Assembly: GCA_934254985.1 (NCBI GenBank)
Contig: CAKQMS010000010.1
Coordinates: 1-64,000, forward strand
DNA from: an uncultured Prevotella sp.
GTDB lineage: Bacteria; Bacteroidota; Bacteroidia; Bacteroidales; Bacteroidaceae
Direction: 5' to 3'
DNA length: 64,000 nucleotides
Shown here in pieces: positions 6,256-20,780 of the stretch. The position numbers and the translations under genes are program-made. Every line of letters begins with the position of its first letter. Within the stretch, counting starts at the first letter, position 1. The notes under the pieces are model-generated. The model had not been told where the DNA came from, did no database searches, and saw nothing but the letters and a program-made list of their open reading frames with translations.

Positions 6256-7053
6256 ATGAGAAAAATTGTTGTTATTATATTCTTGTTTGTGAGTTTTTTC
6301 TCACTTGCACAAGAAAAGGAGTTGCGCATTCCTTATGAAGAGGGTAAAACAATTTATGGAATTTTCTCGACACCTACCGATGATATGACCAAACATGGAG
6401 TCGTTATAATCAGTCATGGTTTTAATGGAACACACCATTTTGGACGTGATTATTTCAAGACTTTGAATGATTTAGGCTATAATGTTTATGCTTTCGATTT
6501 TCCATGCGGATCTGTAAGGAGCCAGAGCGATAATAATACGATGAACATGTCTGTGTCAGACGAAAAGGAGACATTGAAAACTATTGTGAAATATTTCAAG
6601 AAACAGAAGAATGTTGATAAAAAGAATATTGTGCTCATAGGAGAGAGTCAAGGAGGTCTTGTTTCTGCTTTGGCAGCATCTGAGTTGAAGAAACAGATTA
6701 GCCGCCTTATTTTGATTTATCCTGCTCTTTGCATTCCTGACAACTGGAACGAGCGCTACCCACATGTGGAGGATATTCCAGAAGTATCTGAAATATGGGG
6801 CGTGAAACTTGGTAAGAAATTCATGATGGACATTCGTCCTATGAAACCATTTGATACTATTGGCAAATATGCAGGACCAGTACTCATCATTCATGGCAGC
6901 GACGACAAGGTGGTGCCGATAGATTACGCTAAGAGAGCTTTAAAAACTTATAGAAATGCCACGCTTAGGGTAATAGACAAGGCTGGTCATGGGTTTAATC
7001 CTGCCGAACGCAAGCTTTCTAATAAATATGTAGGTGAGTTTCTGGCAAAATAG
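6256..7053 (+). CDS. Secreted alpha/beta hydrolase (esterase type)
   Basis: A 265-residue protein with a signal peptide (cleavage near residue 18, after FSLA) and a full alpha/beta-hydrolase fold. The oxyanion region is SHGFNGTHH (53-61), the nucleophile elbow GESQGG places Ser131, Asp217 sits in GSDDKVVP and His245 in GHGF, making a complete triad. It resembles the cinnamoyl/feruloyl esterase-like hydrolases of gut Bacteroidota; the substrate cannot be read from sequence. The signal peptide suggests a periplasmic enzyme. It is a single-gene unit with its own promoter and ends 31 bp from the convergent ZIP transporter gene, with no clear terminator between. Confidence 0.8.
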   Translation: MRKIVVIIFLFVSFFSLAQEKELRIPYEEGKTIYGIFSTPTDDMTKHGVVIISHGFNGTHHFGRDYFKTLNDLGYNVYAFDFPCGSVRSQSDNNTMNMSVSDEKETLKTIVKYFKKQKNVDKKNIVLIGESQGGLVSALAASELKKQISRLILIYPALCIPDNWNERYPHVEDIPEVSEIWGVKLGKKFMMDIRPMKPFDTIGKYAGPVLIIHGSDDKVVPIDYAKRALKTYRNATLRVIDKAGHGFNPAERKLSNKYVGEFLAK

Positions 7054-14642: not shown

Positions 14643-14752
14643 ATGCGACTATTCGCGTTGGCTGTTTCGATTACTCGCATGACGCCATTCGAATAGTCGC
14701 ATAAGCTCTTTCGAATAGTCGCATAAACTCTTTTGAAATGCCTATAATTTCA
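14643..14752. repeat. 22-bp-period tandem array 1 (five degenerate units)
   Basis: Five consecutive 22-bp units run at 14643, 14665, 14687, 14709 and 14731. Units 3 and 4 agree at 20 of 22 positions around the core CGAATAGTCGCAT; unit 2 agrees with unit 4 at about 16 of 22; unit 5 is weak. Unit 1 holds the same core inverted (ATGCGACTATTCG), so it can pair with units 3 or 4 as a 13-bp stem. The array lies just past hutI in a convergent gap. It is too short for CRISPR and no cas gene is present. Confidence 0.7.
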
Positions 14753-14878
14753 CACTTATATCATGTTTTTGCTCCATAAAACTGGTAGTTTTGCAGATAT
14801 AGTGTTCCAATTAATTTGAGTTTAAACGTAATATAACTTATTGATTATAAGCCTTTTAGAGAGAGCAAATAAGGTTCG

Positions 14879-15042
14879 TGTTCCAGTTGTTCCAGTTGTT
14901 CCAATTAATTATTTTTGCGTTCCATTTTTCTTCCTCTTATATATAACTACTTAATAATCAATTAATTATATAGTATATATAGAGGGGTTTTGGATATTGA
15001 TAACCTAATTGGAACAACTGGAACAATTGGAACAACTGGAAC
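14879..15042. repeat. Inverted arrays of 9-bp GTTCCAGTT repeats
   Basis: The left arm (14879-14907) has three 9-bp units, GTTCCAGTT twice and GTTCCAATT once. The right arm (15006-15042) has four units in inverse orientation, alternating AATTGGAAC and AACTGGAAC. The arms can pair as a long stem around about 100 bp of AT-rich DNA; matching extends through the flanking CG-A-A bases. A lone GTGTTCCAATTAAT lies nearby, around 14802-14815. It sits between convergent hutI and the Nudix gene, so it may act as a terminator or a recombination-prone cruciform. Confidence 0.75.
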
Positions 15043-15075
15043 ACGAAGAGTAAGAAACCACTTTCGTTTTCTTGC

Positions 15076-15795: not shown

Positions 15796-15803
15796 TATAT
15801 TTG
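15796..15803 (+). promoter_or_regulatory. -7 promoter box for the large helicase gene
   Basis: TATATTTG matches TAnnTTTG, followed by C as usual, 27 bp before the ATG at 15831. No good TTTG is present 19-20 bp upstream, so the promoter may be weak or activator-dependent. Confidence 0.5.
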
Positions 15804-15830: not shown

Positions 15831-18800
15831 ATGGCACTAAATATATACAAGATATCAGAGTTTAACCATAAGGCAAAGATCGTGTTGTTTGACGAACTAT
15901 GCAAACTGCTTGCTGAGAGATGTGAGGATGGCAAGGAAGATTGCATAGTTGTGGGCAACTATAATGTGGAGGGAGTAGAGATTGATGCGCTGGTTGTAAC
16001 TCATCATGGTGTCATGGTTTTCGACTTTAAGAATGGTGGTGGCAACATCGTGGCACGAGAAGTGGGAGAGTGGACACAGAATGACCACTCCGTAGCTGGA
16101 GGAGCCTATGGCAAGAGTCCGATGGTGAATGCGAGAATGGTTAGAAATCGCCTGTGCTCAAGTTCGAGCAAGTTGCTTGGTTGCCAGGTGTCGGACGCAA
16201 AAGTGGTGGTTGCGTTTAGCATGCCTTCAGCTATTGATGATTCAGCTCTTTCGGAATCAACGAAGTGCTGGCTGACTGTTTGCGACATCAATAATATTGC
16301 AGACTCTTTAGACAAGGCATTGCTTGGAGCAAGAGTGATAAGTGATGAAGTTTTTAACGCTATCCCTAACCAGTTGCGCTTATCGCAGTTTGATATTCAG
16401 CAAGGTTCTGCTAACAGCTATTCGGGAATTTATTCTCCCGACGTGGCAACCGACTTCTTTGGTCAGATATTGTCGATGCCTCATTATATTGATATCCGAC
16501 TACAATATAGAATGTTGGCACAGATTTTTCATCAGGCTGTCGACGGCAGATTGCAGGACAACAACATAAAGTTCTCGGGCTTTTATGCCAAGGTGGAATA
16601 CCTGCTGTCGGAATATAAAGACAAGATGATGGACAGGTCGTTGGCAATGGCTGTTAACGCTTTTCGTATCAGAACACGCAGACTGAAACCTCGTAGCGCA
16701 AGATATCAAACTAATGACGAGGAAAGCGTGACCGACGAAGAGCTCACAAAGTCGTTGACTCACGATGTGGCAGCCTTGGCTAAGTTTATTGGCATGATTT
16801 ATGGTCGTCCTGTGCCAGAAGAATTGAACCGCCGTTTCCCCTATGTATCAGATGCCTATTATTGTCCGCTTTACCGCATGGGAGCCGTGATGCGAGTGGT
16901 GGTAGACAGTTGGGACGACGACTTTATAATGGCTACTGATAGCGAATCGGGCTTGGAACAGAAGATTTATTATCGCAAGACCGACAACCGCTATGCTCTT
17001 GGCGACCATGGATATCTGAAGGATATGTTGCAAAAGGGCGACCAGTTGAACATAGTGATGCCAAGAATAGAAAACGAGATTATCTATCCTGTCATCGTAA
17101 TCTATAATCCCGACTATCTGATAGACGTATCGTCGCTTGCTGCTTGCTTTTCGGAACACGAGATTGCCACACCATATGCCTATCTGATAAGGAAGTTGTC
17201 GCCTTCGGTAAATAGCGAGGCCATAATGCTCGGTAACTTTGCCGGTCAGATACTCGACGAAGAGGTGTATCATATTAAACGTAGCTATGAGCGCAGCCTA
17301 CGTGCCTTCTGTGCCAATAATGCCGTAAATCTTGCAGTATGTCCGCTATCGGAACAATTTAGAGAGAATGCGGAGATGCAGAAGCAACATATCCATAGAG
17401 CTATATTTGAAACCTTGGCTGAAGCAGCCACAATACCATATCAGGCAGACGGAAGAAACACCATATTGGAACCTTCGTTCTATAGCGAGACGTTGGGATT
17501 GCAGGCTCGTATGGACTTCATACAGAAGGATATGACGATGATGGTGGAGCAGAAATCGGGCAAGGCTGCCTATAATCCGTCAGACCCTTCAACGCCTCGT
17601 ATTCGCCCTGAGCATTATGTGCAGGCGCTATTGTACATGGCGATATTCAGATACAACTATGGTGTGGCGTATAGCAATTTTCATTCGTATATGCAATACT
17701 CTAAATACCCCAACAGCCTTTTGGATATAGCTACAGCTCCAGGATTGCTCTTTGATGCTTTGAAACTGCGCAACCAAGTGGCGTGGATGGAATTGCTATT
17801 GAGCAAGGGTGGATTCCGCATGCTGGAATCGCTTACTCCTGAGCATATTTATCCTAACGAGAGTGGATATGCGTGGACTCACTTTGTGCGTCCGAGATTG
17901 GAGGATATATTGTGCCAAGTTCGAGGTGCGAGTCAGCTGGAACGCGACTATTATTACCGCTTCTTAGCGTTTATTGAAAACGAACAGATACTGTCGAAGG
18001 TGGGCAACCGCACCAAGGAAGAATCGGGATTTGCATCGACATGGAATTCTACTCTCGAAGAGAAACGTAATGCGGGCAACATATATGCAGACCTCAGCAT
18101 CAAGCCTGTACGCAAACAGGAAGGTGAACCTATTGAAGAGGTAGAGTTCTTATTCCCTGAAGAGCAAGATAACGATATGTCGAACTTCAGACAGGGCGAT
18201 GTGGTGTTCTTCTATTCCTACGACCCACGAAAGGTAGATGAACCAAATCCTACACGCCACTATGTGTTCCGTGGCTCGTTGGCAACAAATCCCGGAACCA
18301 AAAGCGTGAAGGTGGCACTACGCAATCCGCAGACCACAACCGAGGTTTTCGAGGGCGAAGTGTGGGCTATAGAGCACGACTTTATGGAATCATCATATCG
18401 TGCGCTATTCCAAGGTATGCAACTATTCCTGCAAGCACCAAAGAGCCGAAGAGACTTGCTGATGCTTCAGCGCAAGCCTGAGATTAATGCGAGCAGAAAA
18501 CTAAAGGGCGACTATACTAACAACGGAAATGCGGAGTTTAACGAGCTTGTGTTAAGAGTGAAGCAAGCCAACGACTTGTTCTTGATAATAGGACCTCCAG
18601 GTACGGGTAAGACCTCGTTTGGTATGCTGAATGTGCTGAAGGAGGAATTGTTGGAAGAGCGGAGCTCGGTATTGCTATTGTCGTTTACAAATAGAGCTGT
18701 CGACGAGATGTGTAGCAAGTTGGTGGAAGAAGGTATCGATTTCATACGCTTGGGTAGCGAACTGGGATGTAGCGAGAAATACAGAAGCCACTTGCTGAAT

Positions 18801-20702
18801 AAACGCTCTGAGGCATGCAAAGATGGCGAAGAGATACAACAACTGATAAGCGGTTGTAGGGTGTTTTGTGGCACTACCACAGCCTTCAATAGCAGCATAG
18901 CGCTACTCGGCATAAAGCAGTTTGACTTGGCTATAGTAGACGAGGCTTCACAGATATTGGAGCCACAGATAATTGGTTTGCTGTCGCAAAAGAAAAATGG
19001 CACAGACGAGTGTGCTATAAAGAAGTTTGTACTAATAGGCGACGAAAAACAGTTGCCAGCAGTAGTGCAACAACAAGAATCGGAATCTAAGGTTGTGGAG
19101 CCTAATCTGCAGGCTATAAACCTAAGTGACTGCCGACTATCGCTATTTGAACGTTTGATAAAGACTTATCGCAAAAATGGCGAGAACAACGAGTATAGCT
19201 ACATGCTAACACGTCAGGGCAGAATGCACCAAGATATTGCAAAGTTTCCTAACTACGCCTTCTATCAGAATAAACTCATACCTGTGCCTCTGTCGCATCA
19301 GGAAGAGTTTACACCATGCGTGAGCGACAGCAAGAATGGTTTGGATAATCTGCTTACAACAAGGCGAGTATCGTTTGTGACGTATCCTCAACCAAAAACC
19401 ACGGAATGGGAATACGAGGTTTCGGACAAGGTAAACATAGACGAAGCTAAGATGGTGGCAGCTGCGGTTTATCGTATCTATAAGCTCAACGAAAAGGAGT
19501 TTGATAAGAAGACCGTGGGCGTGATAGTGCCTTATCGCAACCAAATATCGACCATAAGAAACGAGATTGATAAATATGGGGTTGAGGAGTTGCACGATAT
19601 CATGATAGATACCGTAGAGCGCTATCAGGGTAGCCAATGCGAGAATATCGTGTATGGTTTCACTATAAAGAAATACTACCAGCTAAACTTCTTAACGAGC
19701 AATCAGTATGTTGATGAAACCTCGGGCGAGATTATCGACCGCAAGCTCAACGTGGCTATGACCAGGGCTATGAAACACCTGATAATGATAGGCGACGCAA
19801 GACTATTGCGCGAAAATATCATCTTCTATAAGCTTATGGAGTTTGCGAAGAGTAGACATAGTTATTTCGAAATAGCAGCTGAAGATTTCGTTAAGGGCAA
19901 CTTCTTTTTGGCTGATAACAAAGGTGACACATTTTATAATATTGGTGGCACATTCGAGAGGCTATTCAACAAATTCGTTTTGAAGCCAATAAAGGACGAC
20001 GCTTATAGTGAGTTACCACAATATGTAATGGGCAACTGCGAAGAAACCAATAAGGCGTTGATTGACTATGGACGAATAAACTTCTCTTCGCCCAAAATAT
20101 GCCAAATGGATAATGCTGATGCCAACGGAAGAAAGCAGATGCGGGAATTCTCTGCCCACGACATTGTAAAGCTATATTGTTATCATTATATGAGCGAATA
20201 TTATTATGAAACTAAGGCCTTGTATAGTACATATAGTAAAGCCGGCATTCCAAATAGTGTCTTGTTTATAGATATGGGATGTGGTCCTGCTACTGCAGGC
20301 TTGGCTTTTATGGATGTGTTTGGCGACGTGGTGTCGAACGTGGAATATTATGGAATAGACACATCGGAAGCTATGCTCGATATGGCAGAAAAGATGATGA
20401 AGGATGGTTATGGAGATAAAGCATGCTTCCATAAGGTGAGAAGTTTTTCACAATTAGATGCCAACTTCTGGGCTGGAGTTTCAGAGGTGCCGTCGTTAGT
20501 GGTATTCAACTTCTCGCATTTCTTCTCTATGGTTAGTCCTTCATTCTCGGAGAAACTTGCAAATCAGATATCAAATGTGATGAAGAAATATCCACTCAAC
20601 AAATATGAATTCTTCATTCTGCAAGCGGAGGGAGAAGAGAATAGCAAGAGCTGTAAAGTGTTTAAGAATAGTTTTACCGCAAACCACTTTATAAACAAAT
20701 AA
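15831..20702 (+). CDS. NERD / Dna2-like nuclease / SF1 helicase / methyltransferase fusion
   Basis: A 1623-residue multidomain protein. Residues ~10-120 look like a NERD nuclease-related domain (Asp52, then Asp65-x-Lys67 in VFDFKN). Residues ~480-660 contain a RecB/Dna2-type nuclease core: Asp562 in GLQARMDF and Glu573-Gln-Lys575 in VEQKSG. Residues ~900-1340 are a Dna2/Upf1-like SF1 helicase: Walker A GPPGTGKTS (921-929), Walker B DEAS (1037-1040), a TVERYQGSQ motif, and motif VI NVAMTRA (1307-1313, Arg1312). Residues ~1430-1610 resemble a class I SAM methyltransferase (DMGCG 1481-1485, then EYYGIDTSEAMLDMA). It is a single-gene unit. DNA end processing, repair or defence are possible; none is demonstrated. 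The last codons are partly duplicated past the stop. Confidence 0.8.
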   Translation: MALNIYKISEFNHKAKIVLFDELCKLLAERCEDGKEDCIVVGNYNVEGVEIDALVVTHHGVMVFDFKNGGGNIVAREVGEWTQNDHSVAGGAYGKSPMVNARMVRNRLCSSSSKLLGCQVSDAKVVVAFSMPSAIDDSALSESTKCWLTVCDINNIADSLDKALLGARVISDEVFNAIPNQLRLSQFDIQQGSANSYSGIYSPDVATDFFGQILSMPHYIDIRLQYRMLAQIFHQAVDGRLQDNNIKFSGFYAKVEYLLSEYKDKMMDRSLAMAVNAFRIRTRRLKPRSARYQTNDEESVTDEELTKSLTHDVAALAKFIGMIYGRPVPEELNRRFPYVSDAYYCPLYRMGAVMRVVVDSWDDDFIMATDSESGLEQKIYYRKTDNRYALGDHGYLKDMLQKGDQLNIVMPRIENEIIYPVIVIYNPDYLIDVSSLAACFSEHEIATPYAYLIRKLSPSVNSEAIMLGNFAGQILDEEVYHIKRSYERSLRAFCANNAVNLAVCPLSEQFRENAEMQKQHIHRAIFETLAEAATIPYQADGRNTILEPSFYSETLGLQARMDFIQKDMTMMVEQKSGKAAYNPSDPSTPRIRPEHYVQALLYMAIFRYNYGVAYSNFHSYMQYSKYPNSLLDIATAPGLLFDALKLRNQVAWMELLLSKGGFRMLESLTPEHIYPNESGYAWTHFVRPRLEDILCQVRGASQLERDYYYRFLAFIENEQILSKVGNRTKEESGFASTWNSTLEEKRNAGNIYADLSIKPVRKQEGEPIEEVEFLFPEEQDNDMSNFRQGDVVFFYSYDPRKVDEPNPTRHYVFRGSLATNPGTKSVKVALRNPQTTTEVFEGEVWAIEHDFMESSYRALFQGMQLFLQAPKSRRDLLMLQRKPEINASRKLKGDYTNNGNAEFNELVLRVKQANDLFLIIGPPGTGKTSFGMLNVLKEELLEERSSVLLLSFTNRAVDEMCSKLVEEGIDFIRLGSELGCSEKYRSHLLNKRSEACKDGEEIQQLISGCRVFCGTTTAFNSSIALLGIKQFDLAIVDEASQILEPQIIGLLSQKKNGTDECAIKKFVLIGDEKQLPAVVQQQESESKVVEPNLQAINLSDCRLSLFERLIKTYRKNGENNEYSYMLTRQGRMHQDIAKFPNYAFYQNKLIPVPLSHQEEFTPCVSDSKNGLDNLLTTRRVSFVTYPQPKTTEWEYEVSDKVNIDEAKMVAAAVYRIYKLNEKEFDKKTVGVIVPYRNQISTIRNEIDKYGVEELHDIMIDTVERYQGSQCENIVYGFTIKKYYQLNFLTSNQYVDETSGEIIDRKLNVAMTRAMKHLIMIGDARLLRENIIFYKLMEFAKSRHSYFEIAAEDFVKGNFFLADNKGDTFYNIGGTFERLFNKFVLKPIKDDAYSELPQYVMGNCEETNKALIDYGRINFSSPKICQMDNADANGRKQMREFSAHDIVKLYCYHYMSEYYYETKALYSTYSKAGIPNSVLFIDMGCGPATAGLAFMDVFGDVVSNVEYYGIDTSEAMLDMAEKMMKDGYGDKACFHKVRSFSQLDANFWAGVSEVPSLVVFNFSHFFSMVSPSFSEKLANQISNVMKKYPLNKYEFFILQAEGEENSKSCKVFKNSFTANHFINK

Positions 20703-20735: not shown

Positions 20736-20780
20736 TTCGCCCCCAACGTCTTTCTATAGTTGAAAGATGTTGGGGGCGAA
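20736..20780. terminator. Strong bidirectional hairpin terminator
   Basis: A 19-bp stem with a single mismatch (starting TTCGCCCCCAACGTCTTTC) closes on a 7-nt loop, TATAGTT. It lies between the convergent helicase-fusion and ansA genes and can serve both. Confidence 0.75.

Follow-up and report, generated by a model that had tools for sequence, protein, structure and literature searches.

A rare fusion of a NERD nuclease, a Dna2-like core, and a methyltransferase in Prevotella: a candidate accessory conflict protein

What is the role of a bacterial gene that joins two nuclease modules, a helicase, and a methyltransferase (MTase) in one chain? Such a gene lies at 15831..20702 on the forward strand of the 64,000-nucleotide stretch analyzed here (the window; positions 1 to 64,000 of contig CAKQMS010000010.1, assembly GCA_934254985.1, from an uncultured Prevotella sp.). 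Its open frame starts with ATG and encodes 1623 amino acids. An earlier note had pointed to a self-contained system, perhaps for defence, whose MTase might mark self DNA or modify another molecule. Here we computed the domains, motifs, folds, patchy distribution, and gene neighbours, and from these we infer the target, chemistry, and immune function. We lean towards the reading that the protein serves a conflict system, directed against phages or plasmids, as an accessory nuclease-helicase, rather than being a housekeeping protein.

The domain order given by the earlier note (NERD, RecB/Dna2-type nuclease, superfamily 1 [SF1] helicase, and MTase) was borne out by Pfam, motif rows, and fold predictions, and its motif positions (D52, D65-x-K67, D562, E573-x-K575, Walker A at 921–929, motif VI, and DMGCG at 1481–1485) were all correct in the alignments. 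The NERD nuclease module occupies residues 1–187 (15831..16391, forward strand, as are all features below). Pfam NERD exceeded its curated cut-off at residues 34–104 (E 3.2e-7), and the PADLOC PDC-M16A N-terminus covers residues 1–187. D52 and D65-x-K67 fall within the NERD motif, and the position of D65 is Glu in 12 of 13 aligned NERD rows.

The central part resembles eukaryotic Dna2 in having an OB fold, then a PD-(D/E)XK nuclease with the D...ExK residues, and then a Dna2/Upf1-type SF1 helicase. The OB-fold part (residues about 350–428; 16878..17114) emerged from structural alignment of a predicted model, rows 146–226 of which align with OB-fold chains and Dna2; the alignment with Dna2 begins at model residue 43. 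The Dna2/RecB-type nuclease (residues about 426–706; 17106..17948) was assigned by motif and structure, with matches to the nuclease domains of Dna2, the Cas4 family, AdnA, RecE, and AddAB. Its D562 and E573-x-K575 were kept in 74 of 74 alignment rows, as judged by eye. The helicase (residues 905–1345; 18543..19865) was matched by Pfam AAA_12 (E 6e-31) and AAA_11 (E 2.2e-23), and its best PDB match was DNA2 (5eaw/5eax/5ean, E 4.7e-22). G921–S929, D1037–S1040, and R1304–A1313 were invariant across 15 rows, M1310 being nearly so. Unlike Dna2, the window protein is bacterial and carries the NERD and MTase ends, in a fused form that is rare. Dna2 has four iron-sulfur (Fe-S) cysteines at its nuclease. 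No conserved set of this kind was found here: the Cys columns kept in more than 70% of the 74 rows are 317, 439, 961, 980, and 1101, none within 480–680. We therefore call the core Dna2-like and do not file it as Dna2. The Pfam Dna2 model scored above its cut-off in a core-only relative (locus L020) but not in the window protein.

The class I MTase module spans residues 1360–1623 (19908..20702), with motif I (DMGCG) at 1481–1485. The Pfam matches were sub-threshold (Methyltransf_31, E 2.3e-4, scoring 21.3 bits where the cut-off is 27), and yet the fold was predicted confidently (predicted local distance difference test 87.9; predicted template modelling score 0.86) and its structural matches were class I methyltransferases, so that the MTase claimed by the earlier note stands as a fold. 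Both motif I and the acidic residue that follows strand 2 are conserved, and no break interrupts the frame, either in the window or in relatives of 97–100% identity. However, the protein stops about 35–60 residues short of most relatives, and close relatives differ in how they end directly after VFK. The activity of the window MTase is doubtful because the last strands are missing. The place of motif IV, which is (D/N/S)PP(Y/F/W) in amino-DNA methyltransferases, reads FNFSHFFS/FNMSYFFS in alignments of relatives, without that pattern. The closest fold, a mitoribosome-assembly chain (METTL17/Rsm22), matches over the whole MTase domain, although the window MTase is fused to a helicase and has a non-ribosomal context. 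Since motif IV is absent and the closest fold is of this kind, the suggestion that the MTase marks self DNA is unlikely to hold. Fe4S4 cysteines are described as a feature of the Rsm22/METTL17 family (PMC9892005); no obvious four-Cys set for such a cluster was seen in the MTase-module alignment. Chance resemblance was rejected for the protein as a whole, each domain being separately supported by Pfam, the MTase fold prediction, or structure matches of the core.

To describe the distribution of the gene, we scanned genomes with two exact peptide patterns and obtained 58 loci, a set that is not a census given the patterns used. The core was present in all 58, NERD in 12, the MTase in 15, and both ends in 10, the window being additional. 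Family profiles found no separate NERD or MTase genes adjoining core-only copies in these loci, and no flanking gene of the window recurred syntenically beside the fused form. In the genus of Segatella copri, the core matched in 124 of 150 genomes (E at most 1e-60); judged by how much of the query they cover, seven extended into the MTase and three spanned both ends. Fused and core-only copies occurred together in two genomes (G002 and G011). Homologues 96–100% identical to the window protein are common in public data (e.g., a 1745-member cluster at 96%). Across 398 genomes of the genus, the closest hutI shared 78% identity in its DNA, and neither the gene nor the same flanks were found in regions beside ansA (14 genomes) or hutI (two genomes). 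An accessory fused form, neither universal nor syntenic, is supported.

In contrast, one core-only type, comprising L152–L171 (20 genomes), L150, and L151, had a recurrent esterase-like family near 12 of its 22 loci and dGTPase-like plus dUTPase-like genes at seven; the dGTPase name is backed by PADLOC, and the other names were read from sequence. L151 grouped with the other core-only type in a 55-row tree. The Dna2-like gene of L150–L171 may be a housekeeping bacterial Dna2 of Prevotella. The earlier note had named universal housekeeping homologues as evidence against defence, and this applies by half: core-only paralogues are widespread, often in conserved surroundings, but the fused form is rare and its flanks are not syntenic. 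Separately, one homologue (P0013) appeared mosaic, with both ends like a 79% clade and the middle (residues about 560–1330) like the window clade, owing to either recombination or chimeric assembly.

A profile of the MTase module matched in 4 of 395 Bacteroidota genomes and 2 of 296 genomes in the order of G618, and a search with the protein of L176 matched in 3 of 246 genomes in the family of G412. That protein (486 amino acids, identical to one of Chryseobacterium mulctrae) is an MTase unfused to the core. At L176:116-9873 it stands in a row of a UvrD-like helicase, an ADP-ribosyltransferase/glycohydrolase, the MTase, and, directly downstream, an AlkB-like gene; L187:8507-13867 has the same four-gene row, seemingly an undescribed system. 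The rows adjoin a recombinase and other conflict-type genes. Past the AlkB gene of L176 come genes resembling MksE, MukB, and JetD, of which the MukB and JetD matches fall short of the Pfam cut-off. In L178, a core-MTase fusion of 1472 amino acids, the next gene encodes an AlkB that shares 54% identity with the one in L176. AlkB was absent from two other fusions, L188 and L177, the latter having a degenerate motif I that lost GCG. Three records of Picosynechococcus plasmids, 89–100% alike, have an MTase of the same family (hhalign probability 99.4) with an annotated AlkB gene following it; two hold type III-B CRISPR loci, and the third combines a reverse transcriptase with Abi and restriction-endonuclease genes. 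The PADLOC label C3a159 presumably denotes a type III CRISPR accessory, with which two plasmid records agree. Near 6777–10444 of L181, L182, and L183, an ATP-binding or WYL-annotated gene, the MTase, and AlkB stay together on cyanobacterial plasmids, preceded either by type III-B CRISPR genes or by those of a reverse transcriptase.

Thus AlkB follows the MTase in six of these eight relatives. Its closest solved structure was human ALKBH8 (E 4.1e-23). Mammalian ALKBH8 is described as joining a tRNA MTase and a hydroxylase, and bacterial ALKBH8-like proteins as repairing DNA in vitro, one being inactive on the tRNA wobble base (PMC4051686). This kind of AlkB also occurs on a 5.8-kb Roseobacter plasmid (L189:983-1570) with no annotated MTase adjoining, which weighs against strict pairing from the AlkB side. 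The window MTase belongs to the same family as the MTase-AlkB pairs of Picosynechococcus plasmids and Chryseobacterium-type genomes, and the Dna2-MTase fusion of L178 itself precedes AlkB. Unlike these pairs, the window and the 18 further MTase-bearing loci of Bacteroidales lack a nearby AlkB, an AlkB profile having found none among the open reading frames of the window and the first 90 loci; many of the MTase-bearing ones have DUF1848.

The DUF1848 gene was the sole outstanding neighbour family among 78 loci (Pfam E 3.6e-88 and 5.6e-80). It ends 1–12 bases 5′ of the fusion in 7 of 11 rows with NERD, core, and MTase, and in none of the 67 other rows; because L002, L008, and L046 are near copies, roughly five of these cases are independent. 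All seven proteins carry CxxxCxxC at C321-C325-C328, the pattern of radical S-adenosylmethionine (SAM) enzymes, and they had no match among PDB sequences. The earlier statement that the gene stands alone therefore holds for the window, where it is a self-contained transcription unit, but not for the family. In the near-identical loci L046:14915-20155 and L008:12104-17341, a gene for a 1746-amino-acid DEAD-box helicase lies 28 nt 3′ of the fusion.

We examined the history of the fusion with trees made by a quick method, in which support came from the Shimodaira–Hasegawa-like approximate likelihood-ratio test only and some branches were long. In a 78-row tree of the core, the 11 rows with full fusions required seven changes and fell among core-only rows, and the window paired with L001 of Segatella copri. 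In the tree of 55 rows, the MTase label required 13 changes. Identities of the core co-varied with those of the MTase (r 0.91 for 22 proteins; 0.90 for 19 of the main Bacteroidales clade) and of NERD (r 0.92 for 12 proteins), and 0 of 2000 permutations gave values as high. Owing to this covariation, the pattern reads as an old fusion whose ends were lost repeatedly; repeated gains could also give a high r through shared ancestry alone.

An immune or conflict role is probable because relatives of the MTase adjoin an AlkB gene in CRISPR- and defence-type clusters. In such a role, the Dna2-like core, with its OB fold, PD-(D/E)XK nuclease, and SF1 helicase of the 5′-3′ type, would load on single-stranded, flapped, or branched invader DNA, and would unwind and cut the DNA of the replicating invader, while the N-terminal NERD domain would make a second cut. 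As an effector or control step, the C-terminal MTase would methylate nucleic acid, with RNA or a single strand a likelier target than duplex self DNA. DUF1848, with its radical-SAM-type cysteine motif, may fill the place of AlkB in most full fusions. A broader idea, which we advance tentatively, is that the MTase and its partner (ALKBH8-like AlkB or DUF1848) form a portable nucleic-acid modification cassette plugged into varied immune sensors, with a mark that halts the infected cell or the invader. The partner would be AlkB in Flavobacteriales-type genomes and cyanobacterial plasmids and the radical-SAM-type DUF1848 in Bacteroidales; the sensors would be type III-B CRISPR, reverse transcriptases, UvrD plus ADP-ribosyltransferase operons, and here the Dna2-like nuclease-helicase. 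The mark would derive from a methyl group and would probably sit on RNA or single-stranded nucleic acid, and the partner would complete or erase it.

If the conflict reading is right, a Dna2-type nuclease-helicase best known from eukaryotic replication and repair is tied to an MTase family that travels with AlkB in type III CRISPR and reverse-transcriptase loci, reversible or two-step nucleic-acid methylation joins bacterial immune chemistry, and AlkB and DUF1848 become candidate partners for the MTase family. The core also exists both as a widespread gene with conserved neighbours and as a rare, mobile-looking fused paralogue, a contrast well suited to weighing repair against defence. The part of the literature covered by our search held no account of this fusion or of MTase-AlkB pairing in defence.

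Several results weigh against a conflict role. The nearest family by descent takes in widespread core-only genes whose neighbours are housekeeping-like. No relative turned up in viral contigs scanned by pattern, and phages gave a single weak helicase match. Plasmids gave core-only matches: 99 records matched, none over 80% of the query, and the three best were core-only over 69%. Neither DUF1848 nor AlkB was found in the window or near L001, L005, and L013, and PADLOC called none of the four MksE/MukB/JetD-like genes of L176. To these the truncated MTase is added. The main rival, to which we give a lesser but real chance, is a protein of DNA repair or the replication fork, paralogous to the core-only gene, that handles flaps and broken ends of the cell's own DNA, with the extra domains tuning it. 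The full Dna2 arrangement of the core, its frequency in the genus, and the recurrent neighbours of one core-only type agree with this, and AlkB-type partners are described as repair enzymes in other settings (PMC4051686). On the other hand, the fused form is rare, lacks conserved surroundings, and coexists with a core-only copy in two genomes, and its MTase family is found in CRISPR, reverse-transcriptase, and toxin-like loci.

It is less likely that the gene is a decaying accessory gene in which the MTase end is degenerating within this lineage and contributes nothing, leaving the NERD-Dna2 core as the working part. The short and variable C-terminus, the loss of GCG in L177, and the many relatives without the module point this way; the intact frame, the conserved motif I and acidic residue, and the confident prediction of even the short domain argue against it. 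A self-contained restriction-modification enzyme, its MTase marking self DNA and its nucleases cutting DNA without the mark, seems very improbable. A chain of nuclease, motor, and MTase does resemble the type I/IIL/ISP-type plan, but, besides the missing motif IV and the mitoribosome-type fold, Pfam found no target-recognition domain, 48 of the 58 loci lack the full NERD and MTase set, and 43 lack the MTase. A core with its nuclease and no MTase, as in many relatives, would be lethal for self-marking of this kind.

Returning to the conflict reading, we compared the gene with known defence systems. PADLOC was run on 108 of 133 neighbour proteins of 19 fused loci and, as a control, on 108 of 221 neighbours of core-only loci. 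Beside the fused loci it found two MTases and a restriction subunit of type I, a specificity subunit, a type II MTase, and some candidates; the control also had a type II system, together with dGTPases, which counts against the conflict reading. The survey of neighbours for defence genes proposed in the earlier note thus yielded restriction genes but was not decisive; what makes a defence role likely is the company that the MTase family keeps. Nhi is described as a single-gene nuclease-helicase (PMC12904381), and Nhi-like proteins are listed with Pfam NERD (PMC10952713). The window protein likewise has nuclease and helicase in one chain, but is much larger, differs in order, and adds a second, Dna2-type nuclease, the OB fold, and the MTase; no Nhi-named model was among the 19 PADLOC families listed for it. 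The best curated helicase matches were Mokosh MkoA (E 5.2e-50), PLuB_AAA (157 bits), and TIGR00376 of the IGHMBP2 family (187 bits). The latter two lie below their NCBIfam cut-offs (999 and 348.9 bits) and cover the helicase region only, and the MkoA match is limited to helicase stretches (998–1329 of 1623). Pfam found no Mokosh phospholipase D (PLD) nuclease in the window protein, and the flanks, being hut, NUDIX, and asparaginase genes, hold no Mokosh partner.

Upstream in the window lie a hut operon and a NUDIX gene, and downstream asparaginase-like and uxaC-like genes (names from sequences; NUDIX confirmed by Pfam). A terminator-like hairpin of 19 pairs stands 3′ of the gene (20736..20780, forward strand). 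A possible Bacteroidetes-type -7 promoter element, TATATTTG, lies 27 nt 5′ of the ATG (15796..15803, forward strand); the consensus-type search pattern TANNTTTG had 95 matches in the window against 57 expected, so that one match is weak evidence. The hairpin, TATATTTG, the OB fold, and the loss of the last MTase strands were all absent from the earlier note. Between hutI and the NUDIX gene, at 14650–15060, are short repeats, with GGAACAACTGGAACA in both orientations, and TTCGAATAGTCGCATAA.
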